Positions 4,829 through 37,243 of a stretch of DNA of 42,707 nucleotides are shown here, one piece after another; within the stretch, counting starts at the first letter, position 1; every line of letters starts with the position of its first letter. Where the stretch lies: NCBI GenBank assembly GCA_913044215.1, contig CAJWOT010000006.1, positions 1 to 42,707 on the forward strand, written 5' to 3'. The notes under the pieces were generated by a model that did not search any database, was not told the DNA's origin, and saw only the letters and a program-made list of their open reading frames with translations. The DNA is from an uncultured Rhodospirillaceae bacterium. GTDB taxonomy: Bacteria > Pseudomonadota > Alphaproteobacteria > UBA8366 > GCA-2717185. The position numbers and the translations under genes are program-made.

Positions 4829-6538
4829 TCAGAACAGGAAGTAGCGTTGCGCCATAGGGAGCTCCGTCGCCGGCTCACAGGTCAGCAGCTCGCCGTCGGC
4901 GCGCACTTCGTAGGTCTCCGGGTCCACGGACATGTCCGGCATGGCGTTATTAAGGATCATATCCGCTTTGCCGATCTGGCGGATGTCTTTGACCGGCAGA
5001 ATCAGGCTCTCCAGCCCGAGTTGGTCCGCGACGCCGGCCTCGGCCGCCGCTTGCGAAACGAAGGTGACCCGGCTCTGCTGCAGCGACCGGCCGAGCGCGC
5101 CGAACATAGGCCGGTAATGCACCGGCTGCGGCGTCGGGATCGACGCGTTGGGATCGCCCATGGCCGCGGCGGCGATGGTACCGCATTTCAGCACCAGGTC
5201 CGGTTTGACGCCGAAGAACATCGGTTTCCAAAGCACCAGGTCCGCCAGCTTTCCGACCTCGATTGAGCCGACATAGTCGGCGACGCCGTGCGCGAGCGCT
5301 GGGTTGATGGTGTATTTGGCGATGTAGCGCTTGGCGCGGAAATTGTCGTTCTCGCCGGTTTCCTCCGGCAGACGGCCGCGTTGCTTGCGCATTTTGTCGG
5401 CGGTCTGCCAGGTACGGATGACGACTTCGCCGACCCGGCCCATCGCCTGGCTGTCGGACGCGATCATGCTGAAGGCGCCGATGTCATGCAGGATGTCTTC
5501 CGCCGCGATCGTCTCGCGCCGGATGCGGCTTTCCGCGAAGGCGACGTCTTCCGGGATGTTGGGGTCGAGATGGTGGCAGACCATCAGCATGTCGAGATGC
5601 TCGTCGACGGTGTTGACGGTGAAGGGCCGTGTCGGGTTAGTCGAAGAGGGCAGCACGTTCGCCTCGCCGCACACCTTGATGATGTCCGGCGCATGGCCGC
5701 CGCCCGCCCCTTCGGTGTGGAAGGCGTGAATATTGCGGCCCTTGAAGGCGGCGATGGTGTTCTCGACGAAGCCGGACTCGTTCAAGGTGTCGGTGTGAAT
5801 CGTCGCCGCGATGTCCGTATCGTCGCAGACCGACAGGCAGGTATCGATCGCGGCCGGAGTCGTGCCCCAATCCTCATGCAGTTTCAGCCCGCAGGCGCCG
5901 CCGCGCACCTGTTCAAGCAGCGCTTCCGGCGTGGCGGCGTTGCCCTTGCCGTGAAAGCCGAGGTTCATCGGCAGCCCTTCCGCGGCCTGCAGCATGCGGC
6001 CGATATGCCAGGGTCCCGGCGTGCAGGTCGTCGCGTTGGTCCCTTCCGCCGGACCGGTGCCACCGCCCATCATGGTCGTGACGCCGCTCATCAGCGCATC
6101 GTCGACCTGTTGCGGGGAGATGAAGTGGATATGCACGTCGAGCCCGCCGGCGGTCACGATGCGGCCCTCGCCGGCGATCGCTTCCGTGCCCGGGCCGATG
6201 ACGATATCGACATCGGGCTGCACGTCCGGATTGCCGGCCTTGCCGATCGCCGCGATCTTGCCGTCCTTGAGGCCGATATCCGCCTTGATGATTCCCCAAT
6301 AGTCGAGGATCATCGCGTTGGTGATAACCGTGTCCACGGCGCCTTCGCTGCGGCTGCGCTGCGACTGGCCCATGCCGTCGCGAATGACTTTGCCGCCGCC
6401 GAACTTCACCTCTTCGCCATAGGTCGTCCGGTCCTCCTCAACCTCGATGAACAGGTCGGTGTCGGCCAGGCGGACCTTGTCGCCCACGGTTGGGCCGAAC
6501 ATCGCGGCGTAGGCGCCGCGCTCGATTTCGAAAGCCAT
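4829..6538 (-). CDS. ureC: Urease subunit alpha
   Basis: [56 protein letters not shown]; 569 aa. Confidence 0.98.
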
Positions 6539-18515: not shown

Positions 18516-18523
18516 TCGATCGC

Positions 18524-19984
18524 TCACGTGCCGTCGGGCAGCACATGCGCCCATTTTTCCCGAATGCGGTCGTCGAGTTCCCGGCTGGAGCGGGCGACAA
18601 TGGGAAATTCATCCATCCGGTTCCAGGGCCGGCACGCGTCGATGACGAGGCGCGAATTGCGCTTGTCGGTATCACCGTCATAGCACATCGGGTCGAGCGA
18701 GGTGCTCCATGCTCCATCGATCTGTTCCATATCCATGCGCGGGTCGAAGCGGGTGCACATCGCCCACAGCACGTCGTTGGTGTTGGTCGGGTCGATATCG
18801 TCATCGACCACGATTACCCAGCGATTGGTGTAGCCGCCCGCATAGCATTGCGAGGCGATCAGGCCGGCCTGTTTGGAGTGACCGCCATAGCGCTGCTTGA
18901 TCGAAACGGTTAGCCACAGCCGGCTGCCACCCGCCTCGTGCGCGCAGACGCCTTTGACGTCCGGGATACCCGCCGCTTCCAGCTGATTCCACACCGCGCC
19001 GCTGCGATAGCTGCCGAGATAGTAGGTGTTGTCATTCGGCGGCACGGCGGGGATCACGCCCAGCAGAACCGGCTCGTCGCGATGCATGAAGGTCTCGATC
19101 CGGATGGCGGGCTGCATCCGTTTGCCGCCAGCATAGTAGCCCGTCCATTCGCCGAGCGGTCCTTCCTCGACCAGGTCGTCCTGGTGGATGTAGCCTTCGA
19201 AGGCGATCTCAGCGTTGGCCGGAACCGGGATGCCGGTGCGCGGCATCTCCAGGGTGCGCACGGGTTCGCCGAAGATGCCGCCAACCGCATCGTACTCGCT
19301 GACCCCCTGCGGGATCTCCAGGCCGGCGATCATCAATAGGGTCGGGTGCATGCCGGCGACGACTGCGACCGGGCAGGGTTCGCCCCTCGCATGGTACTTG
19401 TCCATGATCAGGCGGCCGTGCCGGCCCGGCGACATCATGACCGAGGCGGTCTTGGGCCCGTGCGTCTGCACACGATAGGCGCCGTAATTCACCCAGCCGT
19501 CATCCGGGTCCTTCATCACGACCATGCAGCCCGTGCCGATGAAGGGGCCGCCATCATGTTCGTGCCAGGTCGGGGTCGGGATCGAGGTGATGTCGATCGC
19601 ATCGCCCTCAACGACATTCTCCTGCAGCGCACCGGTGGCGACGGTCTCCGGCGCGAATTTCGGCGCGTGCTTCATATAGTCCCGCCACCACAGCACCAAA
19701 TCGCGTTCCGATCCGTCGGCCGGCAGACCGAGCGCGACGTTGATCCGCTGCACCGATGTCAGGACGTTGGCGAGAACCCGATGACCCTTCGGGAAGCCCG
19801 GCACCTCATCGAACAGGATCGCCGGATTGCCCATTTTCCGCTGGTAGAGATCGAGGATGCCGCCGATCTCCTCCGTTGTTTCGGCGCCGGTGATGGTCTT
19901 CAGCGCGCCTTCAGCGTCGACGGCCTCCATCCAATGCCGCAAATCCTGATCCCAGTTGCGTCCCGCGGGGTCCGCCATCGCCAT
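18524..19984 (-). CDS. UbiD family (prFMN-dependent) decarboxylase
   Basis: DLRHWMEAVDAEGALKTI, NPAILFDEVPGFPKGHRVLANVL, EYDAVGGIFGEPVRTLEMPRTGIPVPANAEIAFEGYI, EEGPLGEWTGYYAGGKRMQPAIRI (E-xxxx-E catalytic region); 486 aa. Confidence 0.93.
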   Translation of the reverse strand: MAMADPAGRNWDQDLRHWMEAVDAEGALKTITGAETTEEIGGILDLYQRKMGNPAILFDEVPGFPKGHRVLANVLTSVQRINVALGLPADGSERDLVLWWRDYMKHAPKFAPETVATGALQENVVEGDAIDITSIPTPTWHEHDGGPFIGTGCMVVMKDPDDGWVNYGAYRVQTHGPKTASVMMSPGRHGRLIMDKYHARGEPCPVAVVAGMHPTLLMIAGLEIPQGVSEYDAVGGIFGEPVRTLEMPRTGIPVPANAEIAFEGYIHQDDLVEEGPLGEWTGYYAGGKRMQPAIRIETFMHRDEPVLLGVIPAVPPNDNTYYLGSYRSGAVWNQLEAAGIPDVKGVCAHEAGGSRLWLTVSIKQRYGGHSKQAGLIASQCYAGGYTNRWVIVVDDDIDPTNTNDVLWAMCTRFDPRMDMEQIDGAWSTSLDPMCYDGDTDKRNSRLVIDACRPWNRMDEFPIVARSSRELDDRIREKWAHVLPDGT

Positions 19985-19988
19985 TCTC

Positions 19989-22376
19989 CTAGATTTTGCC
20001 CAGCGTCCGCAGGACGACTTCGGGCGTCATCGGCTGCGCCGTGACCGCCGCGCCAAACGGGCGAAGCGCGTTGTTGACCGCACACATCACGACGCCCGGT
20101 GCCGCACCCGTGCCGGATTCGCCGGCGCCTTTCGCACCGAGCTCCGACTCGCTGGTCGGCGTTTCGACATGGGCGACCTCGATGTCCGGCATTTCCGCCG
20201 CCATCGGCGTCAGATAGTCCGCCATCGAACCGTTCAACAGCTGGGCGTTCTCGTCGTACAGACAATGCTCATACAGCGCGCCGCCCAGCCCTTGGACGCA
20301 GCCGCCGCGCACCTGCTCGTCGGCGAGGTTCGGGTTGATGAGGCGGCCGCAGTCCTCGACCACCCAATGCTTCAACAGGCGGAGGAATCCGGTGTCGGTG
20401 TCGACCTCGACATAGGCGCCGTGGATGCCGTTGGTGAAGATGTAGGGCAGTTCGGTAAGCCGGAAACGCCGTGTCGCCGACAGGGTGGGCTGGTAGTCGT
20501 TCGGCAGTTCGCCGAGCTGGAAATGACCGATGCGGCCGATTTCCGACAAAGGCACGCGAATCTCGCCGCTGCCCGCGGTGACGACATTACCACCGACGAT
20601 ATCCAGGGTTTCGGCGTCGGACTGAAGCAGAATACCGGCCATGGTCAGGATTTCGCGCCGCAAATCGCAGCTCGCCTGATAGACCGCTTCGCCGCCGATG
20701 GCGGTGGCGCGCGACGCGTAGGTGCCGCCGCCATAAGGCACCGCATCCGTGTCACCCTCGATCACCCGAATCTGGTCCAGAGGGATGCCGAGCGCGGTGG
20801 CCGCAATCTGCCCCATCACCGTATCGACTCCCTGTCCCTGGTCGGTGACGCCGACGGTGCAGATGACGCCGCCGGACGGCTCCAGCTTGACGGTGCAGGC
20901 ATCCTGCGACGCGATCGGCGCACCGCCCGACCCGTAATAACCTTGCGGGCCGGGGGCGGTGCCTTTGATGAAACCGGCGATGCCGATGCCGCGATACACG
21001 CCTTGTTTGCGCAGGGCCGCCTGTTCCCGCAGCAGTCCCTCGTAATCCATCAGGCCGATCAACTTTTCCAGGCAGGCTTCATGGGACAGATCGTTGACCG
21101 GAACGCCCGAGGGCGCGACGCCCGGATAGGCGTCGTCCGGCATCACGTTGCGGCGGCGAAATTCCACCGGGTCCATGCCCAGGGTCTCGGCCGCACGGTC
21201 GACCATGTGTTCGCCGACGGAAATGCCGATCGGATGTCCGACGGACCTGTATTGCGATGTCGGAACCTTGTTGAGATAGACCACCGTGGTCTTGGCGCGG
21301 TAATTCTCGAACTTGTAAGGCCCGGCGGTGATGTTGAGCACCTGATTGGCCTCGAACACGCTGGTCCGCGGATAGGCGGAATAGGCGCCCACACCCGCCA
21401 GATCGTCGATCTCCAGCGCCTGAATGTCGCCCGCCTTGCTGACCGCGATGCGGGCGGAGATCTGGTGTTCGCGTGCGTGGATGTCGGAGACGAAGGATTC
21501 CAGCCGGTCGGCGATGAACTTCACCGGCCGGCCCAGCTCGATGGATGCCGCGGTGGCGGCGACTTCGTCGCCGAAGGTGTGAATTTTCAGGCCAAAGGAC
21601 CCCCCGACATCCGGCGCAATGACCCGGACATTGTGCTCCGGCACGCCGAGCGTCCGGGCGAACACGGCCTGGATCATGTGCGGCACTTGGTTGCTGGTAT
21701 GGATGGTCAGCCGCTCTGTGCCGGGATCGTAATCGGCGAGCAGTGCGCGCGGCTCCAGGCTTACCGCCGTGTGCCGGCCGAAGGAGAAAGATTCCTCGAG
21801 CACGATATCGGCCGACGCGAAGGCGTCGTCGACTGTTCCCCGGTCGATCGTCTTGGTGAAGGCGAGGTTGTCGCCGAGATCGGGGTGCAGAACCGGCGTG
21901 CCCGCGTCGAGAGCGGTTTCGGCCTCGGCCGTCGGCGAGATCACCTCCCAGTCGATGACGATCTGTTCGCAGGCATCCTCCGCCAGGGCGCGGCGTTCCG
22001 CCACGACCATGACGACGGGCTCGCCCTGCCAACAGGCTCGGTCCACGGCCATGGCATATTGTGGCGCCGACTTCATGCCTTCGAAGCAGGACAAGGTGCC
22101 GATCCAGGGGCCGGTGCTGCGCTCGGCCAGTTCCGCGCCGGTCATCACCAGCACGACACCCGGCATCGCTTCGGCATCCGCCGTATCGATCTTGAGAATT
22201 CGGGCATGGGCGTACGGGCTACGTACGAAGGCCGCATGCACGGTGCGCGGTAAGGTGATGTCGTCCGTGTAGCGGCCGCGCCCGGCCACGGTGCGCCGGG
22301 CGCTGGCCCGGGAGAGCGATCGGCCGATATGGCTGTTCGGCCCCTCGAAGACGCTGGAGGCTCCACTGTCGCTCAT
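19989..22376 (-). CDS. Xanthine dehydrogenase/CoxL family molybdopterin-binding subunit (2)
   Basis: IGRSLSRASARRTVAGRGRYTDDITLPRTVHAAFVRSPYAHARI, DVGGSFGLKIHTFGDE, SQYRSVGHPIGI, GAGESGTGAAPGVVMCAVNNAL; 795 aa. ATGA overlap with the upstream 2Fe-2S subunit gene. Confidence 0.93.
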   Translation of the reverse strand: MSDSGASSVFEGPNSHIGRSLSRASARRTVAGRGRYTDDITLPRTVHAAFVRSPYAHARILKIDTADAEAMPGVVLVMTGAELAERSTGPWIGTLSCFEGMKSAPQYAMAVDRACWQGEPVVMVVAERRALAEDACEQIVIDWEVISPTAEAETALDAGTPVLHPDLGDNLAFTKTIDRGTVDDAFASADIVLEESFSFGRHTAVSLEPRALLADYDPGTERLTIHTSNQVPHMIQAVFARTLGVPEHNVRVIAPDVGGSFGLKIHTFGDEVAATAASIELGRPVKFIADRLESFVSDIHAREHQISARIAVSKAGDIQALEIDDLAGVGAYSAYPRTSVFEANQVLNITAGPYKFENYRAKTTVVYLNKVPTSQYRSVGHPIGISVGEHMVDRAAETLGMDPVEFRRRNVMPDDAYPGVAPSGVPVNDLSHEACLEKLIGLMDYEGLLREQAALRKQGVYRGIGIAGFIKGTAPGPQGYYGSGGAPIASQDACTVKLEPSGGVICTVGVTDQGQGVDTVMGQIAATALGIPLDQIRVIEGDTDAVPYGGGTYASRATAIGGEAVYQASCDLRREILTMAGILLQSDAETLDIVGGNVVTAGSGEIRVPLSEIGRIGHFQLGELPNDYQPTLSATRRFRLTELPYIFTNGIHGAYVEVDTDTGFLRLLKHWVVEDCGRLINPNLADEQVRGGCVQGLGGALYEHCLYDENAQLLNGSMADYLTPMAAEMPDIEVAHVETPTSESELGAKGAGESGTGAAPGVVMCAVNNALRPFGAAVTAQPMTPEVVLRTLGKI

Positions 22377-22861
22377 GACGATTTCTCCAGGCGCTGGGTC
22401 AGGGTGGTTTCGACCGCGTCGACAATCGCGTGGTAGCCGGTGCAGCGGCAGTAGTTGCCGGAGAGAAATTCGCGAATCTCTTCGCGGGTTTTCGGCGCGG
22501 CCTCGCGCAGCAGTTCCGCTGCGGTGATCAGCATGCCGGGCGTGCAAAAACCGCATTGCAGCGCGTCGCGTTCGACGAAATTCTCCTGCAAATCGGCGAC
22601 CTCGCCGCTCGCCGTCAGCCCTTCGACCGTCTCGATGGAGGCGCCGTCGGCCTGGATGGCGAGCATCAGACAGCCCCGGACCACATCGCCATCCAAGCGC
22701 ACCGAGCAGGCGCCGCAAATCCCGTGTTCGCAGCCCAGATGGGACCCGGTCAGGCCGAGCTCGCCGCGCAGGAAATCCACCAGATGCGTGCGCGCATCGA
22801 CCAGCTTGGTGACACTCTCGCCATTCACCGTGAGCGTGATGGTCTTGGTCTCGTCGCTCAT
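22373..22861 (-). CDS. (2Fe-2S)-binding subunit, CoxS family (1)
   Basis: CEHGICGACSVRLDGDVVRGC, CGFCTPGMLITAAELL, GNYCRCTGYHAIVDAV. Confidence 0.94.
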   Translation of the reverse strand: MSDETKTITLTVNGESVTKLVDARTHLVDFLRGELGLTGSHLGCEHGICGACSVRLDGDVVRGCLMLAIQADGASIETVEGLTASGEVADLQENFVERDALQCGFCTPGMLITAAELLREAAPKTREEIREFLSGNYCRCTGYHAIVDAVETTLTQRLEKSS

Positions 22862-23727
22862 GCCGCCCTCGCCCGTTCGATCGCCTGGTCCAGTACGCGA
22901 CCGGTTAGGACGCGCTGCAGATGCAGTTTGAAGGCGGCGCTGCCCTGCAGATTGTCCATCGGATCCAGATCTTCGGATAGGGCCGCCATCGCCGCCGACC
23001 GGCTCTCGTCCGACCAGACCTTGCCGGCGATCGCCGCCACGGCGTTCGCAGCCAGCGTCGGCCGGTCTTCGCTGGCGAAATAGACCAGCTTCGCATCCGT
23101 CACCGTTTCGCCATCGGTTTCCGCGGCGCAGGCGACCCCCGCAATGGCGAAATCCCCTTGCCGGCGGCTCAGCTCCATGAAGGCGTGCACGGTACCCGGG
23201 CGCTGGCAGGGGATGCGGATTTCGATGAGCAGCTCGTCCGGCTGCCGCTCGGTCTCGAACAGTCCCTTGAAAAAATCCGCCGCCGCGATGTCACGGCGGC
23301 CGCGCACGCTCTCGACCGTGATGGTCGCGCCGAGCGCCAGGATACAGGCGGGCAGTTCCGCGGCGGGATCGGCCAGTGCGATGCTGCCGCCGAAGGTGCC
23401 GCGGTTGCGGACGGCGACATGGGCCACATGCGGCATGGCTTCCGCGATCAGGGGCAGATGCTCGGCCACGATCGGCGACCGCTGGACCGCGGCGTGCCGG
23501 GTCAGCGCACCGATGCGCACCGCATCGTCCTCGACCGAGATACCGGCGAGGTCCTCCAGCCGATTGATATCGATGAGAAGGTCGGGCTTCGACAGCCGCA
23601 TGTTCAGGGTCGGCATCAGGCTCTGACCGCCGGCGAGGACGTTCGCGCCGTCGCCATGTTCCGCCAAAAGCGCTAACGCCTGCGCCACGCTGTCCGCGCG
23701 CGCGTAGGTCATTTTCGGCGCCTTCAT
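22858..23727 (-). CDS. FAD-binding subunit, CoxM family (1)
   Basis: VLAGGQSLMPTLNMRLSKPDLLIDINRL, AHVAVRNRGTFGGSIALADPAAELPA. Confidence 0.94.
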   Translation of the reverse strand: MKAPKMTYARADSVAQALALLAEHGDGANVLAGGQSLMPTLNMRLSKPDLLIDINRLEDLAGISVEDDAVRIGALTRHAAVQRSPIVAEHLPLIAEAMPHVAHVAVRNRGTFGGSIALADPAAELPACILALGATITVESVRGRRDIAAADFFKGLFETERQPDELLIEIRIPCQRPGTVHAFMELSRRQGDFAIAGVACAAETDGETVTDAKLVYFASEDRPTLAANAVAAIAGKVWSDESRSAAMAALSEDLDPMDNLQGSAAFKLHLQRVLTGRVLDQAIERARAA

Positions 23728-23736
23728 AACCCCCCT

Positions 23737-24213
23737 CTATTCGTTTTTGGCCCGGCGGTCATGCAACACCGCCATGATGGCGCGGACGATGCCGGCATAA
23801 CCGGTGCAGCGGCAGATGTTACCCGCCAGTTCGAGACGCACCCGGTCTTCATCCGCGTCCGGCAACCGGGTCACGATATCGCGTGCGGTAAACAGCATCG
23901 CTGGAGTGCAATAGCCGCATTGCAGCCCATGATGCGCGGTGAACGAAGCCTGCAGCGCCACGATGACCGGGTCTGTGTCGCTACCTTCGATGGTCTGAAT
24001 ATGGGCGCCGTCGCAGCTGACCGCGTAAAGAATGCACGACCGCACCGGCTCGCCGTCGACCATGATCGTGCACGCGCCGCAGACCCCATGCTCGCAGCCG
24101 AGATGGATGCCGGTCAGCCGCCGCTGTTCGCGCAGGAAATCGGCGAGCGTCGTTCGCGGTTCGACGGTCGCAGTGATCGACTCACCGTTGATCGTGAGAG
24201 TCGTTTCCATCAT
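23737..24213 (-). CDS. (2Fe-2S)-binding subunit, CoxS family (2)
   Basis: CEHGVCGACTIMVDGEPVRSC, CGYCTPAMLFTARDIV, GNICRCTGYAGIVRAI. Confidence 0.94.
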   Translation of the reverse strand: MMETTLTINGESITATVEPRTTLADFLREQRRLTGIHLGCEHGVCGACTIMVDGEPVRSCILYAVSCDGAHIQTIEGSDTDPVIVALQASFTAHHGLQCGYCTPAMLFTARDIVTRLPDADEDRVRLELAGNICRCTGYAGIVRAIMAVLHDRRAKNE

Positions 24214-25040
24214 GCGCCGTAGGCCTGCGCGACAGCGCGGTGCAGTGCTACCGCGTGCATTCGCAGCTTGAAGGGGTCGAATGTCTCACCGGTTTCCGTC
24301 AGCGCCATGCGCGCGGCATCAAGATCGAACTTGGCGCCATCGTTCTGCGCGATTGCGGCCGCGGCGGTATCGAGCTGCAGCGGCGCATCCTCGGTTGCCG
24401 CGAGAACCAGCCGGGCGATGCCGGATTCGGGATCGCAGACATAGGCGCCGATCGATTCCGCGAATTCCCCGGGTTTGCGGCAGATCTTGTGATAGCCCCA
24501 GCGAGCCGAGCCGGAGAGGGCGGGCACGCGGACTCCGCGCACGATTTCATCTTCTTCGAGGGCTACGGTGAATGCGCCGAGCTGAAACGTATCGATCGCA
24601 GCCTCCCGTGTGCCCGCCGGTCCGTCGATGACGATCTGCGCGCCCAGCGCCCGTAGCGCCGCCGGCCAGTCGCCGGCCGGATCCGCATGGACGAGGCTGC
24701 CACCGATGGTGCCGCGGTTGCGCACGGCGCGATAGGCGATTCCGGCGGCGACATGCTGGATCATGCCACGAGTCACGTCGGGCAGGATGCCGTCTTCGAT
24801 AGCGGCGTGTGTCACCAGTGCGCCGACGAACAGATGGTCGGGTGCTTGCGTCACGGCCTTCAAAGCGTCGAGGGCTCGGATGTCGATCAGCCGGTCCGGC
24901 CGCGCCAGGCGCAGATTCATCATCGGGCCGAGCGACTGGCTGCCCGCCAGGACCTTACTGTCGCCGTCTTCCGCTGTCAGCACGGACAGGGCTTCGGCCA
25001 CATCGTTCGTTTTCGTGTAGTCGAACTTCGCCGCTTTCAT
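24210..25040 (-). CDS. FAD-binding subunit, CoxM family (2)
   Basis: VLAGSQSLGPMMNLRLARPDRLIDIRAL, AYRAVRNRGTIGGSLVHADPAGDWPA. Start at MKAAKFDYTK. Confidence 0.93.
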   Translation of the reverse strand: MKAAKFDYTKTNDVAEALSVLTAEDGDSKVLAGSQSLGPMMNLRLARPDRLIDIRALDALKAVTQAPDHLFVGALVTHAAIEDGILPDVTRGMIQHVAAGIAYRAVRNRGTIGGSLVHADPAGDWPAALRALGAQIVIDGPAGTREAAIDTFQLGAFTVALEEDEIVRGVRVPALSGSARWGYHKICRKPGEFAESIGAYVCDPESGIARLVLAATEDAPLQLDTAAAAIAQNDGAKFDLDAARMALTETGETFDPFKLRMHAVALHRAVAQAYGA

Positions 25041-25073
25041 CGCGCTGTGCCGCACTTGCCCCGTCAGCTTCCA

Positions 25074-25094
25074 ACCATAACCGCATGCTATGGT
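25074..25094. promoter_or_regulatory. Candidate operator between divergent operons
   Basis: Inverted repeat ACCATA-N9-TATGGT in the 84-bp gap between the minus-strand Mo-hydroxylase operon and the plus-strand CoA-transferase. Confidence 0.35.
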
Positions 25095-25123
25095 ATCGGA
25101 GGAAGAGACCGCAATGGTGAGCG

Positions 25124-26452
25124 GTGGCACGGTCGACTTATTTGGACGGGTGTAAAGCGCAGCCTAGTATACCGGCGCCCCTCCTTCCGGTTTCCAAAAA
25201 GGCTGCGCCGTTGTCCAAAGCTGAATCTCAGGAAAGACAGGTCGCCCGTCCCGGTCCTCTTTCGGGTGTGCGGGTGCTCGATCTCAGCCGGGTACTGACC
25301 GGACCGTTTTGCTCGATGATCCTTGCCGATCTCGGGGCCGAGGTGTGGAAGGTAGAGGAATTGAAGCGTGGCGATCAGACGCGCTCCATCCCGCCTTATG
25401 TCAATGGCGAGAGCCATTATTACCTGGCGATAAACCGCAACAAATCGAGCCTCGCACTCGACCTCAAGAGCGACGAGGGGCGCGAGGTTGCACTTGGTCT
25501 CGCCGCCAAGGCAGACATCGTTCTGGAGAATTTCCGGCCCGGCGTAATGGACCGGTTGGGGCTCGGGCGCGAACGGCTGCGCCAGGACAATCCGGGGCTG
25601 ATCATCTGTTCGATCACCGGTTTCGGTCAGTCCGGCCCGATGTCCGACAAACCCTCTTTTGATCTCGTCACCCAGGCGATGAGCGGCGTCATGAGCATCA
25701 ATGGCGAACCGGACGGGCCGCCGACCAAGCTCGGCATCCCGATGGGCGACGTCGGCGGCGGGCTGTGGGGCGCGATCGCCGTACTGTCGGCACTGCAGCA
25801 CCGCAACGCCACGGGGGAGGGGTTGGATATCGACCTCAGCCTGCTCGACGGGCTGATCGGTCTGCTCGGTTATCTCGGCCAGATTCATATCGTCACCGGC
25901 GAGAGCCCGGGCCGGGTCGGCAGCAGCCATCATTCGATCGTCCCTTATGGCCGCTATCCGGTGAAAGGCGGCTACATCGTGCTGGCGCTGCATGTCGGCA
26001 ATTTCTGGCGGAACTTTTGCCGCGCGGTGGGCCGGCCGGAACTGATCGAGCAGCCGGAGTTCCGCACCACCGCCGACCGGCACGCCAACCGGGATATATT
26101 GGAGCCGCTGGTGATCAAGATCCTGTCGGCAAAGACCATGGAAGAATGGCACGAAATCTTCGATTCGGGCGACGTGCCGCACGCACCGGTCTATTCCGTC
26201 GGCGAGGCGCTGCACCAGCCTGCCGTCGCCGCCCGCAACCTGCTGCGCACCGCGGACCATCCGACGGCCGGGCCGGTCGGCATTGTCGACACGCCTATCA
26301 AATTCCTCGACCGGTTTACGGATGCGCCGGTCCGCGCCGCGCCGCGGCTGGGCGAACAGTCGCGCGATATCTTGCAGAATATATTGGGCTATGCGCCGGA
26401 ACGGATCGACGCGCTGCGCGATGCCGGCGTGATCGAGACACCGGAGGATTAA
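25124..26452 (+). CDS. CaiB/BaiF (family III) CoA-transferase
   Basis: GVRVLDLSRVLTGPFCSMILADLGAEVWKVE, ENFRPGVMDRLGLG, CSITGFGQSGPMSDKPSFDLVTQAMSG, PMGDVGGGLWGAIAVLSAL. True start may be further downstream. Confidence 0.93.
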   Translation: MARSTYLDGCKAQPSIPAPLLPVSKKAAPLSKAESQERQVARPGPLSGVRVLDLSRVLTGPFCSMILADLGAEVWKVEELKRGDQTRSIPPYVNGESHYYLAINRNKSSLALDLKSDEGREVALGLAAKADIVLENFRPGVMDRLGLGRERLRQDNPGLIICSITGFGQSGPMSDKPSFDLVTQAMSGVMSINGEPDGPPTKLGIPMGDVGGGLWGAIAVLSALQHRNATGEGLDIDLSLLDGLIGLLGYLGQIHIVTGESPGRVGSSHHSIVPYGRYPVKGGYIVLALHVGNFWRNFCRAVGRPELIEQPEFRTTADRHANRDILEPLVIKILSAKTMEEWHEIFDSGDVPHAPVYSVGEALHQPAVAARNLLRTADHPTAGPVGIVDTPIKFLDRFTDAPVRAAPRLGEQSRDILQNILGYAPERIDALRDAGVIETPED

Positions 26453-28501: not shown

Positions 28502-29290
28502 TTAGAGGCCCGCCCGTTCCGGCGTTCCCGTTACCATGCGCAGCACGTGATAGGTCGCAATGGCGGCGGCCAGATGTTTCAGGCTGTGCCCGCTCACCGC
28601 GCCGCCGAGCAGAGCCAGTACGGGGCCGTCGAAATGCTCGAGCACTTTGGCGATTCCATACCAGACGATAACCCAGATCAGCTGGCCGCCGCCGGTATAG
28701 TGCGATTTGGGAAACAGCCAGCAGATCACCGGAAGGGCCAACATCGGATAGAACTGCACCATCGCGTACCAGCGCAGATCGCCGCGCCCTTGACCTTCGG
28801 ACCAATTCCAGTACAGCAGACTGGCGATGCCGATGGCGACCAGGATTGGCAGAAGCCAGCGGTTGCCGAAAGGGCGGTCTATACGGTCAGCTACGATGGC
28901 AGCGAACAGCGCCATGAAGGCAACTGTCATCGGCAGCCGGTCCCAGAACAGACGATCCGTATCCGGCAGCAGATGATAATAGGCTGACCCGACGGCAACG
29001 AGCCCAACGCCGGTAAAGAAGACTGCGTAGGGCGTGGCGTCCGGCCCTTCGGTGAAAATTACCCGGCGGCGCGATCCCAGCAGGGACCAGAGGCCCATCA
29101 GGCTGACCACCAGAAATCCGGCATTGGAGATCGTGTCTCCGAAATTCGGGATACCCCACAGCGGCCGCATGTCGGCAAACTGATGGTAGTCCGGATCCTG
29201 TGGGATCGGTGGAACGAAGCTGGCACCGACCAAGGTGACGGCGAACAGGGCGAGAAGGATCGCGATCCGTTGTTGTTTGGTCAGCGTCAT
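28502..29290 (-). CDS. CREST superfamily / alkaline ceramidase-like 7-TM membrane protein
   Basis: DTISNAGFLVVSLMGLWSLL, GSAYYHLLPDTDRLFWDRLPMTVAFMALF, VSGHSLKHLAAAIATYHVLRM: the Ser / HxxxxD / HxxxH pattern of CREST metal-dependent membrane hydrolases. Confidence 0.75.
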   Translation of the reverse strand: MTLTKQQRIAILLALFAVTLVGASFVPPIPQDPDYHQFADMRPLWGIPNFGDTISNAGFLVVSLMGLWSLLGSRRRVIFTEGPDATPYAVFFTGVGLVAVGSAYYHLLPDTDRLFWDRLPMTVAFMALFAAIVADRIDRPFGNRWLLPILVAIGIASLLYWNWSEGQGRGDLRWYAMVQFYPMLALPVICWLFPKSHYTGGGQLIWVIVWYGIAKVLEHFDGPVLALLGGAVSGHSLKHLAAAIATYHVLRMVTGTPERAGL

Positions 29291-30177
29291 GTCGTTCCCC
29301 CTTGCTGTAAGGCCCTCCGTTTTGCCAGGCGCAGATGATAGTGCAGTTGCTCGGCGGCAAGTCCATGCAGCATCAGTCGGAATCCCGCATTCAATGTGGA
29401 CAGGGGCAGCATCGGATGCGCGTTTCGGGCGAGAAACAGATGTTCCCCGCTACCGAGCAGCCGCGCGACATAGATCGCGATGGTTTCGTCGAGCTGCAGC
29501 GAGTTGCTGGCGCGCCAGAAATCGTTGTCGGTCAGGAACAGTTGGTAAACCGGCGTGTAGGCAATGACCGCCGTCTGAAGATCGATCACGTTGAGTGATC
29601 CTTCCGGCATCGATTCCAAGGCTATTTCACCATCGGTGATCGCATCGAAATTGAGCGTCGCTGGCGGCTCAATTCTTCGGCCTGTTTTCTCCAACCCGGT
29701 ATTCAAGCCGATTACGAAGTTGAAGATGTTCAAATCGTGCTGCAGGAACACATTGTCCTTAAGCGCGTCGATCGTCGTCGGTCGCAGAGGCACCGTCTCG
29801 ACTTCCGCGTCCGGTACATTGTCCTTGATGAAGTTGAGCAGTTCGGTACCGATGTGGAAATGACGCAGGATCAGACGGTTGGCCTCCGGCGACGCGAAGT
29901 TGCGCAGTCCCCAGCAAATAAGGCGATGCAATGTCCCAGGCGCGCCGAGATTGTTCGGGACCAGCAACCGCAATGCGCTGAAAAACAGGATCGACAACCC
30001 GGCCAACGGCCGCAGGAAGGGCAGCAGTGCCTTGCGCGAAACGCGCCGCATGCCGCGCATCAGATCGAGCTTCGCTTGCGGGTCGATCGGGATGCTCTTG
30101 TCGACGTAGAGCGCCAACCAGGGGTCCGGGTCGCGCGGATCGCTGGTCCCTGGGTCGAAATCCGCCGGGTAGGTCAT
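29287..30177 (-). CDS. Conserved hypothetical protein, 296 aa
   Basis: MTYPADFDPGTSDPRDPDPWLALYVDKSIPIDPQAKLDLMRGMRRVSRK...; His-bearing motifs RHFHIG, LQHDLNIFNF, LHYHLRL. Overlaps both neighbouring genes by 4 nt. Confidence 0.75.
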   Translation of the reverse strand: MTYPADFDPGTSDPRDPDPWLALYVDKSIPIDPQAKLDLMRGMRRVSRKALLPFLRPLAGLSILFFSALRLLVPNNLGAPGTLHRLICWGLRNFASPEANRLILRHFHIGTELLNFIKDNVPDAEVETVPLRPTTIDALKDNVFLQHDLNIFNFVIGLNTGLEKTGRRIEPPATLNFDAITDGEIALESMPEGSLNVIDLQTAVIAYTPVYQLFLTDNDFWRASNSLQLDETIAIYVARLLGSGEHLFLARNAHPMLPLSTLNAGFRLMLHGLAAEQLHYHLRLAKRRALQQGGTT

Positions 30178-32027
30178 ATGTTGTCGAGCTCCTCCAGTTG
30201 CAGCCGGTAGAGACGGGCGGTTACTTTCGCCGTCTTGACGATCTCGTCGACCAGCTTCGGTGTCAGGTCGAGCCGGTCGAGCACTTCCCAAAACCGGTCC
30301 ATGTGCGTCGCGTCATTGTCGCCATGATAAAGCAGGAAGCGGAGCTGATCCGGGGCCAGCGCGAGCTGTTTTTGGATCGCACCGCCCCATTGCGCAGCGA
30401 CACGCTGGCCCAACCCCTCGATGATGAACATCGCGCCCAGCAGGTCGATCGGATTCTCGCGGCTCGCCTTGTGGAACATCCAAGCGGATAGCGCTTCCGA
30501 TCCGATATTTTTCTCGGCCGCAAGGATTTCCTGACGCGTCCCCCCGGCGGCGACATAGTCGCTTTCCAGCAGCTTGAAATCGCGATGTTCATCATGCGCA
30601 TGGGTCAGGAAAGTGGAGCGTAAATCGAATGCCTCGACCGTGATATTAGATGCTGCCCGGGCGATCCATCGCGCACCATCTACGACCTGCTGGCGCAAGT
30701 TACGCAGCAGCATGCGGTAGTCGCTGATGGTAAACCGTCCGCGCTGCAGCTTGTCGATCAACGGTACGCGCTGCAGTTGGCGTTCGAATTCCAGCCATTC
30801 GATCGTCAGTTTGCGGACCAAAGCGGATTTCAGGTCATCGACGGGCGCCAAGTCGAACCCTGGCCTATCCGGTTCCGCTTCCGGGGTCGGCAAACTCACG
30901 ACGCGAGCCTCACCTGCGACCGAGAGAAGCATGTAGGATACGATGAAGCGTCCGCTCTCCGGGACCATGCACAGGACTTTCTCCGTGTCGCTCAGGACGC
31001 CGCCGTTAAACAACTCCTCCAACATCAGGTAGATGGACGCGGAGCCCGTATTGCCCTTCTCATAAAGGTTGGTGAAGATCTTGTTTGCGTTGATTGGCGT
31101 GCCGGCGCGTTCAGCGGCATCTAGCAGTTCCTTGCGGAAATGATCCGAAGAGAAGTGATAAAGCGCCCAGTCGATCTTGTGCGGATTGATTTTTCCGGAG
31201 TCAATCAGCTCCATGTAGCGCTGCAGGCCGACCGGCACGATGTTCTTGAGTAGGCGAAAATCCTGCCGCAAATGGAAGGCGCCGTCGCGTACCGCCGCGT
31301 CGAGAGTCGAGTAGTTCGACCAGGGCCGCTCGATCTCACCGTCGGCACCTTTCAATCCGCCGGCGTACATGCAGGTGTCGTAGCTGTCGGCGTAGGAGAC
31401 CAGGTCCACGAAGTCGATGCGGATCGACTGACCTTTCGCGTTCGGACGGTTTTCAAGCAACAGTGCCCCCGCCCCATCGGAGAGTGTCCAGCGCAGAAAC
31501 TCCGTGTCCGGGGTCGCTGTGGCACCTTCCAGGTAGCCGGCGCGCAGGAAGCGACTGGCGAACTCGCTGGCGCAAACCAAGGTATTTTTCTTTTCGCCGC
31601 TCCGGATCGCCGATATCGCCGACTTGAGGGCCATCATTCCGCTGGCACAGAAGCTGGTAAAACTGGCAATTTCGGTCGCTTTTGTACCCAGTTCGGCATG
31701 AACCATGCTAGCGAACCCTGGTGCCAGCAAATCCCCTTGTGAGGCTGCGGCGGCAATGTATTCCACATCGTCCGCAGCCAGTTCGCTGCGCGCCAATGCG
31801 TCGCGGCAAGCCAGTGCCGCCATTTCCGCATTGGTGTGCTGTGGCTCGCCGTTTCGATCGATGGCGTAATGACGCGTCTTGATACCGTTTGCCTCAAGCG
31901 CGGATAGCCGAAGGCGTTCCTGTTTCGCGCTGAGCGGCCCAAGGAAGGCTGCGACCTCGTCATTACCGATGGGGTCCCCCGGCAGGAATGAACCGATAGC
32001 GGTTATATAGACAGGCTGCATATTCAT
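30174..32027 (-). CDS. Beta-ketoacyl-ACP synthase III-like domain fused to a heme-oxygenase-like diiron (iron-containing redox enzyme) domain
   Basis: N-terminal KASIII: SFTSFCASGMMALKSAI (Cys), ALYHFSSDHF (His), LYEKGNTGSASIYLML (Asn). C-terminal HDO: RGRFTISDYRMLLRNLRQQVVDGARW, THAHDEHRDFKLLESDY, LLYHGDNDATHMDRFWEVL; 617 aa in one frame. Confidence 0.85.
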   Translation of the reverse strand: MNMQPVYITAIGSFLPGDPIGNDEVAAFLGPLSAKQERLRLSALEANGIKTRHYAIDRNGEPQHTNAEMAALACRDALARSELAADDVEYIAAAASQGDLLAPGFASMVHAELGTKATEIASFTSFCASGMMALKSAISAIRSGEKKNTLVCASEFASRFLRAGYLEGATATPDTEFLRWTLSDGAGALLLENRPNAKGQSIRIDFVDLVSYADSYDTCMYAGGLKGADGEIERPWSNYSTLDAAVRDGAFHLRQDFRLLKNIVPVGLQRYMELIDSGKINPHKIDWALYHFSSDHFRKELLDAAERAGTPINANKIFTNLYEKGNTGSASIYLMLEELFNGGVLSDTEKVLCMVPESGRFIVSYMLLSVAGEARVVSLPTPEAEPDRPGFDLAPVDDLKSALVRKLTIEWLEFERQLQRVPLIDKLQRGRFTISDYRMLLRNLRQQVVDGARWIARAASNITVEAFDLRSTFLTHAHDEHRDFKLLESDYVAAGGTRQEILAAEKNIGSEALSAWMFHKASRENPIDLLGAMFIIEGLGQRVAAQWGGAIQKQLALAPDQLRFLLYHGDNDATHMDRFWEVLDRLDLTPKLVDEIVKTAKVTARLYRLQLEELDNI

Positions 32028-32043: not shown

Positions 32044-35000
32044 TTACGAGGTCGCGGAAGCCGTGATTGCGACATAGTCGACTTTTCCCGTGCCCAGCAC
32101 CGGGACCGCGTCGACCGGGCGCACGGTCGCGGGCACGGTGAGTTCCGAGATGCCGTCGGCCCGCGCCTGTTCCGAAAGCGCCGCGCGATCCGCGTCCGGG
32201 TATTCGGTGAGCAGGATGATCTGCTCGCCCTTGCGGGCGTTGGGAATGCTGATCGCGGCGTGCATATGGTCGGGCCAGACGGCGGCGGCCAGCGCCTCGA
32301 CCGCGGTCAGGGAGACCATCTCACCGGCGATCTTGGCGAAGCGCTTGGCGCGGCCTTGGATGGTGATGAAGCCCTCCCGGTCTACGGTAACGATATCGCC
32401 CGTGTCGTAGCTATTGTTCTCTGTTGCTTCGAGCACCCCAGGATTCTCCGCGCGCAGATAGCCGAGCATCACGTTCGGACCGGTGACGACCAGCTTGCCG
32501 CCCTCGTTGATACCCGGCACGGGCTCCAGCTCGTAGGTGATGCCCGGCATCGTCCGGCCAACCGTGCCGGCCTTGAAGTGCATCGGGGTGTTGGCGGCGA
32601 TGACCGGCGCGGTCTCCGTTGCGCCGTAGCCTTCCAGCACGCGCAGGCCGAACTTGTCCGACCAGACCCGACGCGTCTCGTCCTTCACCTTCTCCGCACC
32701 GGCGAACACGTAGCGCAGGCTGTAGAAATCGTAGGGATGCGCGACCTTGGCGTAACCGGTCAGGAAGGTATCGGTGCCGAACATGATGGTCGCGTTGGTG
32801 TCGTAGACCAGCGCGGGGACGATCCGGTAGTGCAGCGGGGAGGGATACAAAAAGGTCTTCACGCCCGACAGTACGGGCAGCAGGGTGCCACCGGTCAGGC
32901 CGAAGGAGTGGAAGATCGGCAGCGCATTGAACACGATGTCCGTCGGGTTGAAATCGATGCGCGCGGCCAGCTGGTGCCGGTTGGAAAGCAGGTTGGCGTG
33001 GCTGAGCACCACGCCCTTCGGTGTGCCCTCCGAGCCGGAGGTGAACAGGATCACCGCGGCCTCATCCGGTGACGTTGCATGACAGTCATGAACCGCGTGG
33101 GCGAAATGCCGCGAGAACAGACCGGCCAGCTTGTCGAGGAGACCGATTTCCTGACGCAGATCCTCCAGATAGATGATCTCCGCCTGTTCCGCGAGCGCGG
33201 CAACCGCCTCTTCCAAGTTGCCGAGGGCAATGAACCGGCGCGACGTCACGACGGTGTCGACTTGGGCAGCCATCAGCGCCGCGCGCATACTCTTCGTCCC
33301 GGTCGAGAAGTTCAGCATCGCCGGTACCCGTCCGAAGGCCTGCAGGGCAAAGAAGGTCACCACGCCGCCGACGGAGTTCGGCAAAAGGAACCCGACCGGC
33401 CGGTCCGCCTGTGTCATCGCGGCCAGTTTGCGGCCCAGCACGAGAGCGCCGGTGACAAGGCGGCCATAGCCGATGGGCTTGCGCTCGATATCCTCGGCGA
33501 TCGGGTGTTTGCGGCCGTGAACCGCCTGCGCGTCGAGCAGCGCCTGGAACAGGGTCCGGTCGCAATCCTCGGTCTCGAAGATCATCTGGCTCATCACATC
33601 GTAGAGTTTCGTGCCGGCCAGCTGGCGGCGCTCGCGCCCGACCATCTCTGCCGGTATCTCGAAACGGCGCGGCGGCAGAACGGTCATCGTGATTTTGGGG
33701 AACCAGCGAATGCGAACCTTGTCCTTCACGCGCGAGAAGGGGGTGTATTGCGCACCGTCGATGCGGACCGGTACCAGCATCGCGTCCGCCTTGTCGGCGA
33801 TCATGCCGGGCCCTTCATAGACCTTCATCAGGGCGCCCGTAACGGTGATCCGACCCTCCGGGAAGATGACGCAATGCCGGTCTTCCTTCACCGCCTTGAT
33901 CAGACCCTTGGTCGACATGGGATTGGTCGGGTCCACGGCGAAGAAATCCACAAGCCGTAGCATCGGTTTCATCCACCAGTGCTGGGCGATATGCGTGTTC
34001 ACGGCGAACATCGGTTTGATAGGCAGAAAGGCGGCCAGGATGATCGCATCGAGAAACGAAATGTGATTGACGACGATGACCGCGCGCTTGCCGGCCTGGG
34101 CGTAATGTTTCATGCCCTTGATCTCGACCCGGTACAGCAGTTTCAGCAGCGAGATGGCCAGGCCTTTGATCAAGGTGTCCGGCAGCAGGCCGCAGACATA
34201 GATCGCGACGATGCCGTTGCCTATCGCCAGCGCGAGGAAGATAGCGGGTACCGAGCAGCCTAACGTCAGCAGGAGAGCCGCGGTGGCGGCCCCGGCCACC
34301 ATGAACAGGGCGTTGAGAATGTTGTTGGCGGCAATGATCCGCGAGCGGAACGTTTCCTCGCTGCGGGTCTGCAAAATGGCGTACAGGGGCACGATGAAAA
34401 GGCCGCCGCAGATAGCGATCGCGAGCAGGTCGAAAACGATTCGCCAGTGTGCGGCGGCGCTGACGAAGGACACCGCGTCCGTCAGTTCGGCTGACGGCAC
34501 ACGCCCGGTGCTGGCGAAGAACAGGTCGGCGATGAAGACGGTCATGCCGATCGCGGCGAGCGGCACGTAACGTGCCGTGACCTCACCGTCGAGTAGCCGG
34601 TTGCAGAGCAGCGAGCCCGCGCCGATCCCGACCGAGAAAAGGGTCAGGAACAGGGTCACGACGGTTTCGTCGCCGCCCAACACGTCCTTGGCGAAGGCAG
34701 GGAACTGCGCCAGGAAGGTGGCCCCGACAAGCCAGAACCAGGAGATGCCGAGGATCGACAGGAAGATGCCGCGCTGCGCGCCCGCCTTGCGCACGATCGA
34801 CCAGGTTTCCGCCAGGATATTCGGATTGAGTTTCATATCCGGTGCCGGGGCGGGTGCTTTCGGGATGGCGAAACTGCTCGCCAGCCCGGCCAGGGCGACG
34901 AGCATGACGCCGGACGCGACGATGACGGTGCCGTTGTCCTGCAGAATCAGCAGGCCGCCCGCGATCGTGCCGGTCAGGATCGCGAGGAAGGTCCCGGCCT

Positions 35001-35451
35001 CGATCAGGCCGTTGCCGCCGACGAGTTCGTCCTCGGACAGGTGGTCCGGCAGGATGCTGTACTTGACCGGCCCGAAAAAGGCGGACTGCATCCCCATCAG
35101 GAACAGCACGGTCATCAGGTAGGTGACGTTGCCGAAGATCAGCCCTGCGGCGCCGAGTCCCATGATGGCCACTTCGGCCACTTTGATGGTCCGGATCAGT
35201 CGGGATTTCTCGAACTTGTCGGCGATCTGACCGGCGGTTGCCGAAAACAAGAAGAAGGGCAGGATGAATAGACCTGCGGCAGTGGTCACCATGAGCTGGC
35301 CATCGATCTCCGCCATCTCCGCGATGCGGAAGATGATCAGCAGGGCGAGCGCGTTCTTGAACAGATTGTCGTTCAAGGCGCCCAGCGCCTGCGTGACGAA
35401 CAGCGGCAGGAACCGCTTTGTGGCCAAGAGATGGGTCTGGGTTTCAGACAT
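32044..35451 (-). CDS. MFS (LplT-like) - PlsC acyltransferase - acyl-[ACP] synthetase (Aas-like) fusion
   Basis: MFS N-terminus (LGALNDNLFKNALALLIIFR), PlsC motifs VNHISFLDAI and FPEGRITVTGALMKVYEGPGMIA, ANL ligase motifs ILFTSGSEGTPKGVVLSHANLLSN, LEGYGATETAPVIAANTP, YDTGDIVTVDREGFITIQGRAKRFAKIAGEMVSL. Confidence 0.93.
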   Translation of the reverse strand: MSETQTHLLATKRFLPLFVTQALGALNDNLFKNALALLIIFRIAEMAEIDGQLMVTTAAGLFILPFFLFSATAGQIADKFEKSRLIRTIKVAEVAIMGLGAAGLIFGNVTYLMTVLFLMGMQSAFFGPVKYSILPDHLSEDELVGGNGLIEAGTFLAILTGTIAGGLLILQDNGTVIVASGVMLVALAGLASSFAIPKAPAPAPDMKLNPNILAETWSIVRKAGAQRGIFLSILGISWFWLVGATFLAQFPAFAKDVLGGDETVVTLFLTLFSVGIGAGSLLCNRLLDGEVTARYVPLAAIGMTVFIADLFFASTGRVPSAELTDAVSFVSAAAHWRIVFDLLAIAICGGLFIVPLYAILQTRSEETFRSRIIAANNILNALFMVAGAATAALLLTLGCSVPAIFLALAIGNGIVAIYVCGLLPDTLIKGLAISLLKLLYRVEIKGMKHYAQAGKRAVIVVNHISFLDAIILAAFLPIKPMFAVNTHIAQHWWMKPMLRLVDFFAVDPTNPMSTKGLIKAVKEDRHCVIFPEGRITVTGALMKVYEGPGMIADKADAMLVPVRIDGAQYTPFSRVKDKVRIRWFPKITMTVLPPRRFEIPAEMVGRERRQLAGTKLYDVMSQMIFETEDCDRTLFQALLDAQAVHGRKHPIAEDIERKPIGYGRLVTGALVLGRKLAAMTQADRPVGFLLPNSVGGVVTFFALQAFGRVPAMLNFSTGTKSMRAALMAAQVDTVVTSRRFIALGNLEEAVAALAEQAEIIYLEDLRQEIGLLDKLAGLFSRHFAHAVHDCHATSPDEAAVILFTSGSEGTPKGVVLSHANLLSNRHQLAARIDFNPTDIVFNALPIFHSFGLTGGTLLPVLSGVKTFLYPSPLHYRIVPALVYDTNATIMFGTDTFLTGYAKVAHPYDFYSLRYVFAGAEKVKDETRRVWSDKFGLRVLEGYGATETAPVIAANTPMHFKAGTVGRTMPGITYELEPVPGINEGGKLVVTGPNVMLGYLRAENPGVLEATENNSYDTGDIVTVDREGFITIQGRAKRFAKIAGEMVSLTAVEALAAAVWPDHMHAAISIPNARKGEQIILLTEYPDADRAALSEQARADGISELTVPATVRPVDAVPVLGTGKVDYVAITASATS

Positions 35452-35468: not shown

Positions 35469-36332
35469 TCAATCGCCGTTCGGGGATTCTTCGGGTTTAT
35501 CCGGCGTCCGATCCACGCGCCGGTAGGGGCCGGAGACGGTGATGGTTTCCGCGGCATCTCCCGTGAATTGCAGATAGTCGACGACTGACTTCACGGACAC
35601 GACCTCGTAGCGACCGTCACGGTGACTGGATGGCGGTTGGTCGTCGAACCGAATATTCGTTGCCGACAATTTCGCCAGCGAGCGTCGCAGCGACGAAATC
35701 CGAATAACCGAATCCTGGAAACCCCGTTGCCGGTAATGGCGGTGGGTCTCGTCACGCGTATGGAAAGACTTGCCATCCGCCTTGGCCTGTGCAAGCGCGA
35801 TCAACTTCAGCACCCATTGGTTCGAGTCCTGATACTTCGCCGGACTGCCGAGGTAGGAGATCATGTTGTAGCGGGGGTCATAGAACCTTCTCGGCGCCCG
35901 GTCCTTGGACACCGCTTCTACATGGGTCGCCAATGGTTTGCCAAATGTGAGGACCAAAACGTCGTGGGTCAGCGGGTTGTCCAGCATGAAGGAGCCAAGA
36001 CCCTGAACATTCAGTCCCGAACCGCTTTTACCGCACGAGGTCAGCTGATGCACGACGACCCATGCGCCGTCCTTGTCGCGCTTCCTGGCGAAACCGGCAT
36101 GGGTGAATCGCCAGCCGTGCTCGGATATGTCGCTGCCGAACCGCGCGATGAATGCGAACCGCGCGGATTGTCGTTGCAAGACCTGTTTTACATCGCTGGC
36201 GACTTGCAGCGCGGACTGTAATTCCGCTCGGGTCACCTGGTGGTCGATGCAGCCGCGTCCCGCTTGGGCACCGATCGATGCGAAGACGGTAAGACACGCG
36301 GTTGCCAGGAGCAGGATGGGTCTGAGCCGCAT
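35469..36332 (-). CDS. DUF2145-like secreted protein
   Basis: Signal peptide MRLRPILLLATACLTVFASIGAQAGRGC; YDPRYNMISYLGSPAKYQDSNQWVLKLIALAQAKADG. Confidence 0.6.
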   Translation of the reverse strand: MRLRPILLLATACLTVFASIGAQAGRGCIDHQVTRAELQSALQVASDVKQVLQRQSARFAFIARFGSDISEHGWRFTHAGFARKRDKDGAWVVVHQLTSCGKSGSGLNVQGLGSFMLDNPLTHDVLVLTFGKPLATHVEAVSKDRAPRRFYDPRYNMISYLGSPAKYQDSNQWVLKLIALAQAKADGKSFHTRDETHRHYRQRGFQDSVIRISSLRRSLAKLSATNIRFDDQPPSSHRDGRYEVVSVKSVVDYLQFTGDAAETITVSGPYRRVDRTPDKPEESPNGD

Positions 36333-36333
36333 G

Positions 36334-36567
36334 CTATTGCTCTTGATACTCGGACGCCTCAAACAAAGCGCGACCGGCTTGTGTCGGAATGAAAAGAACC
36401 ACTTTTGCACTGTCACCGACCAGTTTTGCGGATTCGACGATCAGCTTTCCACCGTTGACCAGTGTATAGGCGCTGCCATGCACGGCGACTCCGATGCCGG
36501 AGAGGATGATGCTGGGTCCGGCAAGCGAAACCTCGGCAGGGTGAGGGTGACGGTATTCATCGTTCAC
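36334..36567 (-). CDS. Small hypothetical protein, 77 aa
   Basis: VNDEYRHPHPAEVSLAGPSIILSGIGVAVHGSAYTLVNGGKLIVESAKLVGDSAKVVLFIPTQAG...; GTG start overlapping the 3' end of the TetR gene. Confidence 0.5.
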   Translation of the reverse strand: MNDEYRHPHPAEVSLAGPSIILSGIGVAVHGSAYTLVNGGKLIVESAKLVGDSAKVVLFIPTQAGRALFEASEYQEQ

Positions 36568-37243
36568 CCCTGTTGACGCGCAGCCCCGCGACGTAGTTAG
36601 CGACCAGTCCTTCCGCCATGGTGCGCACCGACTGGGATGAGACCACTTGCAGCTTGCCACTGCCCGACAGCGAGCAGATACCATGCAGTCCGGCCCAAAG
36701 CGTGCGCGCGGCGTCTGAGCGAGCGTCGTCTTGATTGGCATCGAATAAGGGGGCGAGCGCATCTCCCAGCAGACCCAGCACGCGCTCGACCTTGCGGCCA
36801 TACCATTCCGGGGGCGTCTGGCCTTCCGGCAGGGAATATTCGAACAGCATGTTCCACAGACGCGGGTTCTCGGCCAGGAATCCGAGATAGCCGCCGAGCA
36901 GTTGCGCGAGCCGCGCTTCGGTCGTTTCTGGGATCGCGCCGCCGTTTAGCCGGTCATGCAGCGCGTCCAAGGTGCGGCCGTTCAGATGCAGGATCATTTC
37001 GTCAAGGTTGGCGAACAGATTGTAGAGCGTGCCCGGGGAGTAACCGATCGCGTCCGCGACGTTGCGCGCGGTGAGGGACCGAAAACCGTCCGTCTCGACG
37101 ATATTCTGCGCCGCGGCAAGGGCGTTCTCGTAAAGCTCTTCGCGACTATGGTCTGTTCTGCGGGCCAATGATTTTGCTTTTTGTTCCGGTTTATTTTGAA
37201 CATTGTTCAGAATATATAATTGAACGTTGTTCAAAATCAACAA
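36557..37243 (-). CDS. TetR/AcrR family transcriptional regulator
   Basis: HTH REELYENALAAAQNIVETDGFRSLTARNVADAIGYSPGTLYNLFANLDEMILHLNG. Upstream TTG start at 37243 is doubtful. Confidence 0.85.
   Translation of the reverse strand: MLILNNVQLYILNNVQNKPEQKAKSLARRTDHSREELYENALAAAQNIVETDGFRSLTARNVADAIGYSPGTLYNLFANLDEMILHLNGRTLDALHDRLNGGAIPETTEARLAQLLGGYLGFLAENPRLWNMLFEYSLPEGQTPPEWYGRKVERVLGLLGDALAPLFDANQDDARSDAARTLWAGLHGICSLSGSGKLQVVSSQSVRTMAEGLVANYVAGLRVNRGER
37196..37234. promoter_or_regulatory. Tandem operator-like palindromes for the TetR regulator
   Basis: TTGAACATTGTTCAG (37196-37210) and TTGAACGTTGTTCAA (37220-37234), start-to-start spacing 24 bp. Confidence 0.65.

Follow-up and report, generated by a model that had tools for sequence, protein, structure and literature searches.

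The minus strand of the window, the 42,707-nt stretch of contig from an uncultured Rhodospirillaceae bacterium that was analysed here, carries a conserved three-part module made up of a StlD/DarB-like ketosynthase (KS), a domain of the heme-oxygenase-like diiron oxidase (HDO) superfamily on the same chain, and a DUF6999 protein. The module is real, and its parts, their conservation and linkage and the intact KS triad are established. Our tentative reading, which we place somewhat short of an even chance, is that the module serves lipid biosynthesis and that the HDO acts on the KS product in place of DarA; the module probably makes an undescribed lipid. As far as our searches show the module is itself undescribed: literature searches for DUF6999 or for a KS-HDO protein found nothing, in line with the first-pass annotation, which had suggested an undescribed product, and the word "ketosynthase" is absent from a 2026 review of HDOs (PMC13108848).

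The KS-HDO fusion gene (30174-32027) was placed on the minus strand, the first-pass annotation having given no strand. Its frame is free of internal stops and comprises 633 codons from ATG 32075 and 617 from ATG 32027. An AAGGAG sequence abuts ATG 32027, yet it sits 6 nt 5' of ATG 32021, and on account of this spacing the 615-aa protein that begins MQPVYITAIG at ATG 32021 is the likelier product. Residue numbers used here run from ATG 32075; those of the 617-aa form are lower by 16. A Pfam scan of the fusion protein, proposed earlier as a check, found ACP_syn_III (2.5e-7) and ACP_syn_III_C (3.1e-6) in the N-terminal part and Haem_oxygenas_2 (1.5e-8) in the second, all above their cut-offs, which together with the uninterrupted frame confirms the earlier claim that both domains lie on one chain. 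The AF2 model that had also been called for is confident over the whole chain (pLDDT 90.5, pTM 0.89) and shows two folded domains with about 18 disordered residues between them; it bears on the domain layout. The interdomain linker (30846-30917, minus strand) is mostly disordered in the model, with pLDDT below 50 at ORF residues 392-409.

By sequence and fold, the KS domain (residues 20-386; 30918-32018, minus strand) is StlD/DarB-like and belongs to a clade of its own below the family cut-off. In a fold search it matched StlD (5GK0) at 38% identity, with a TM score of 0.91 of the target and an E value of 8.9e-35, and StlD was also the nearest solved protein in a sequence search of the PDB (2.3e-76). 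The Cys-His-Asn triad noted at first pass was borne out. Cys143 (FCASG, 31647-31649), His307 (YHFSS, 31155-31157), aligned to the His that carries the mutation in StlD 5GK2, and Asn342 (GNTGSAS, 31050-31052) are invariant in all 25 aligned proteins (20/20 KS-HDO ketosynthases and 5/5 DarB proteins), and about 40 further positions are common to the KS-HDO ketosynthases and DarB. On NF005293, the NCBI StlD/DarB model, the KS scored 372-373 bits against a cut-off of 450; for this reason it is called StlD/DarB-like rather than a member, and it may do different chemistry. Consistent with its separate standing, the KS-HDO ketosynthases form one clade opposite DarB in a tree of 25 sequences (support 100/100) and are not nested inside DarB. 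An ordinary FabH fused to an oxidase was ruled out, as StlD scored far above FabH. Ketosynthases of the StlD/DarB type build cyclohexanediones and resorcinols by joining two acyl thioesters. The KS type points first to a cyclohexanedione- or resorcinol-like condensation.

The HDO domain (residues 411-633; 30177-30845, minus strand) matches PF14518 with 39.2 bits against a cut-off of 28.9 (8.2e-10), as did 15 of 16 family members overall, and a PDB search with the HDO profile returned 3DDE as the sole significant match (9e-14) and nearest solved structure by sequence. The domain is homologous to the HDO superfamily by sequence; its cofactor type is uncertain because the helix-1 ligand has changed. 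Candidate ligands are H492, E496 and D499 on core helix 1 (30579-30602; HxxxExxD instead of YxxxExxH), E553 on core helix 2 (30417-30419), and H584, D588 and H591 on core helix 3 (30303-30326; HxxxDxxH), all on the minus strand. These seven and E527 are kept in all 19 HDO domains compared, in each of which residue 466, in the preceding helix, is Asp or Glu. At positions 492/496/499 the KS-HDO clade has H/E/D in 19/19, as against Y/E/H in 28/28 other PF14518 proteins, a comparison set from the same phylum, mostly of one subfamily, whose members were picked for having that canonical pattern on the right strand. The canonical ligand motif, E-H-E-H-(D/E)-H, is reported for about 85% of HDO groups (PMC11363339). 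The KS-HDO pattern departs from it, being E-D-E-H-D-H with an extra His at 492 in 19/19: the helix-1 His has become Asp (D499), and a new His (H492) lies seven residues upstream. The first-pass annotation had read both stretches as HDO ligand patterns; HxxxDxxH is indeed canonical, but DEHRDFKLLES is not a canonical ExxH, since E496 is kept, D499 takes the place of the His, and the helix has its invariant His at 492 instead. We infer a metal site formed by the seven candidates. Their spacing within both triplets (i, i+4, i+7) is compatible with convergence, and their number and kind (three His, four carboxylates) equal those of SznF-type sites (PMC13108848), with the fourth carboxylate drawn from another source. 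A widespread stand-alone HDO subfamily (L083-L110; motifs EEEMGH, VLEGTS and HGSLDVGH) accounts for most PF14518 matches, which occur in 39 of 150 sampled genomes.

DUF6999 (PF22523; 29287-30177, minus strand; 384 bits) overlaps the fusion gene by ATGA and is the obligate third part of the module; the earlier account of the locus had missed both this partner and the altered ligand pattern. Wherever a locus extends far enough to show it, DUF6999 comes right after KS-HDO. Two overlapping samples, of 385 and 399 genomes, yielded 6 and 9 genomes with DUF6999, 14 different ones in all, and every one of the 14 had KS and HDO with DUF6999 adjoining. Its model (pLDDT 88) is all-helical, and a fold search against the PDB gave no match (best E 0.99). 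Its invariant residues in the alignment include R106, H107, H148, D149, D231, H272 and E277, so that a metal site is conceivable. In Caulobacter vibrioides DUF6999 scores above cut-off and the KS and HDO models match too, a KS match that may be FabH.

Fused KS-HDO genes were found in the window, in five loci from Kiloniellales, an Acidobacteria MAG, Caenispirillum and Inquilinus (L003-L006, L008) and in six more distant Pseudomonadota loci (L048-L053). In eight loci (L041-L047 and that of Pseudoalteromonas sp. THAF3, L064) KS and HDO are adjacent but separate genes. Two loci that end inside the KS (L007, G064) were excluded from this scoring. The tree implies at least two changes between the fused and split states. 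A chance or frameshift fusion was ruled out because the pair recurs across lineages in both states, and the split pairs argue that the link between KS and HDO is functional. The proposed coupling of chain formation to oxidation gained support. The eight split loci also indicate that fusion is not essential, so that tethering, which had been put forward as the point of the architecture, cannot be the whole of it. KS-HDO was absent from the 29 genomes most closely related to that of the window, and its distribution is therefore patchy; within the window, the locus does not stand out in GC content.

The neighbours of the module suggest lipid substrates. Downstream on the minus strand, a gene for a ceramidase-like membrane protein (28502-29290; PF05875, just under cut-off) overlaps DUF6999 by ATGA. 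Upstream on the same strand lies an Aas-type fusion of lysophospholipid transporter, PlsC acyltransferase and acyl-ACP synthetase (32044-35451; NF005291/PRK06814, 1690 bits against a cut-off of 1349), followed by a DUF2145 protein (35469-36416), the probable operon head from Pfam and gene spacing, and a TetR-family regulator (36557-37243), relatives of which are also next to KS in L046 and L007. An Aas-type gene is upstream of KS-HDO in four loci (the window, L003, L004 and L046); a fatty-acid desaturase-like gene takes its place at six others, three of which add a fatty-acid hydroxylase, and the Inquilinus locus has a P450 downstream. The lipid setting named in the first-pass annotation is borne out by these genes. 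In Pseudoalteromonas-type loci (L064, 11454-12011; L047, 10841-11407) the gene immediately upstream of the split KS encodes a small membrane protein with the conserved motifs DWCCHR, HExxAHxDV and WEMHAH; the L047 copy had no Pfam match.

Elsewhere in the window, a region of molybdenum hydroxylase subunits (16170-25130, minus strand), two of them large (16170-18554 and 19989-22718) with a UbiD-type decarboxylase between (18524-19984), adjoins CoA-transferase and MaoC genes and is possibly an aromatic degradation cluster. A tRNA-Ser called by ARAGORN within the molybdopterin-dehydrogenase gene, on the opposite strand (18217-18290, plus; gene 16170-18554, minus), is just 74 nt long and likely false. 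An Rfam match to 5_ureB_sRNA (6097-6386, plus; 133 bits), on the strand opposite the urease alpha gene (4829-6538, minus), is probably due to conservation of the urease coding sequence rather than to an RNA gene.

The main ground for regarding the HDO as an oxidative partner that replaces DarA is the distribution of DarA itself. DarA, darA and darB being given as DAR-aromatase and DAR-cyclase in PMC3949708, adjoins DarB in 10/10 DarB-only genomes tested. It was not found in 12 of 13 KS-HDO genomes (the window's genome and 11 others), in a search whose query was assigned from its neighbours, DarB and DarH, and is recognised by neither Pfam nor NCBIfam; the thirteenth, G726, has a separate DarB locus with DarA alongside. 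The window's genome, having no DarA, does not show the DarA-beside-DarB arrangement of a dialkylresorcinol pathway. The KS-HDO neighbours examined included no recognisable ACP or DarH-type gene. The absence of DarA could also mean a different product rather than a replaced enzyme. On the favoured reading, the KS would, like StlD and DarB, join a pair of acyl thioesters, probably beta-ketoacyl ones, to yield a beta-diketone of the 1,3-cyclohexanedione type or a related one. The HDO would then oxidise this product in an O2-dependent reaction, at the place of DarA in dialkylresorcinol loci; the reaction might be an aromatisation, an oxidative decarboxylation or a hydroxylation. DUF6999 would perform or assist a further step that is obligatory, and the acyl chains would be supplied or tailored by lineage-specific genes (Aas; desaturase and hydroxylase; P450).

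One alternative is an UndA-like route, in which the KS would make a beta-keto acyl intermediate or a beta-keto acid and the HDO would cleave it oxidatively to an alkene, a ketone or a shortened chain. Fatty-acid decarboxylation is the reaction of UndA, the founding HDO, and the substrates of characterised HDOs are mostly fatty or amino acids (PMC13108848). The lipid-type neighbours would suit such a route, which is close to the product suggested at first pass. We consider it rather unlikely: the KS is nearest to StlD/DarB, with OleA-type enzymes not among its nearest matches, the canonical helix-1 ExxH is ExxD, no hydrocarbon-pathway genes were recognised at KS-HDO loci, and an UndA-type product, while possible, gained no specific support. 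StlD requires an unsaturated acyl partner (a Michael acceptor), and the HDO might instead act before the KS and prepare that partner, for example by introducing a double bond or a hydroxyl group into an acyl thioester. Desaturations are among the HDO reactions (PMC13108848), and desaturase and hydroxylase genes stand next to some KS-HDO loci; this order of events would nevertheless leave the missing DarA unexplained, and DarB-type loci work without an HDO next to the KS, so we hold it unlikely.

A pathway without a ring, in which a long-chain KS product is made into a membrane lipid with DUF6999 and Aas and the HDO acts as a hydroxylase, would account for the adjoining Aas genes, the ceramidase-like gene coupled to DUF6999, the desaturase and hydroxylase genes of other lineages and the KS score below the StlD/DarB cut-off. 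The invariant residues that KS and DarB have in common throughout the domain speak against it, and we hold it unlikely as well. It is very improbable that the HDO domain is non-catalytic or independent of metal (structural, or TenA/PqqC-like). The canonical helix-1 His is lost in all members and PqqC functions without a metal (PMC11363339), but the helix-2 Glu and HxxxDxxH are fully kept and the three helix-1 candidates are invariant.

In its widest form, which we regard as doubtful, the replacement of DarA would make this a new pathway dependent on O2: an HDO whose His ligand has been relocated would oxidise a StlD/DarB-type cyclic product, DUF6999 would be a new enzyme family, and an undescribed lipid class would extend across Pseudomonadota and Acidobacteriota. 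The module links two well-studied enzyme types that, as far as we found, have never been described together, and it offers a first functional handle on DUF6999. An HDO clade whose putative metal site is systematically altered allows a direct test of ligand-set variation in HDOs, and since DUF6999 occurs in C. vibrioides, a genetically tractable model, the pathway is probably testable there.

Set against known systems, the DUF6999 protein is a full member of PF22523, a family without an assigned function. The HDO domain resembles UndA, CADD, SznF, BesC and AetD in its PF14518 match, its helix-1 and helix-2 Glu and its helix-3 HxxxDxxH; it differs from them in helix 1, where 19/19 members have Asp for the ligand His and a further His seven positions earlier, and in sharing a chain with a ketosynthase. 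Its nearest structure, 3DDE, has the HDO fold, a record without assigned function and, in the alignment, a His where KS-HDO has D499. The KS shares its fold, its triad, the CM..G motif and the LSDGAGA and PESG regions with StlD, the Photorhabdus stilbene ketosynthase, and DarB, the dialkylresorcinol ketosynthase. In contrast to these, it falls in a clade separate from DarB and below the NF005293 cut-off, its partners are HDO and DUF6999 rather than DarA, and about half of the lineages seen carry it fused to its oxidase.
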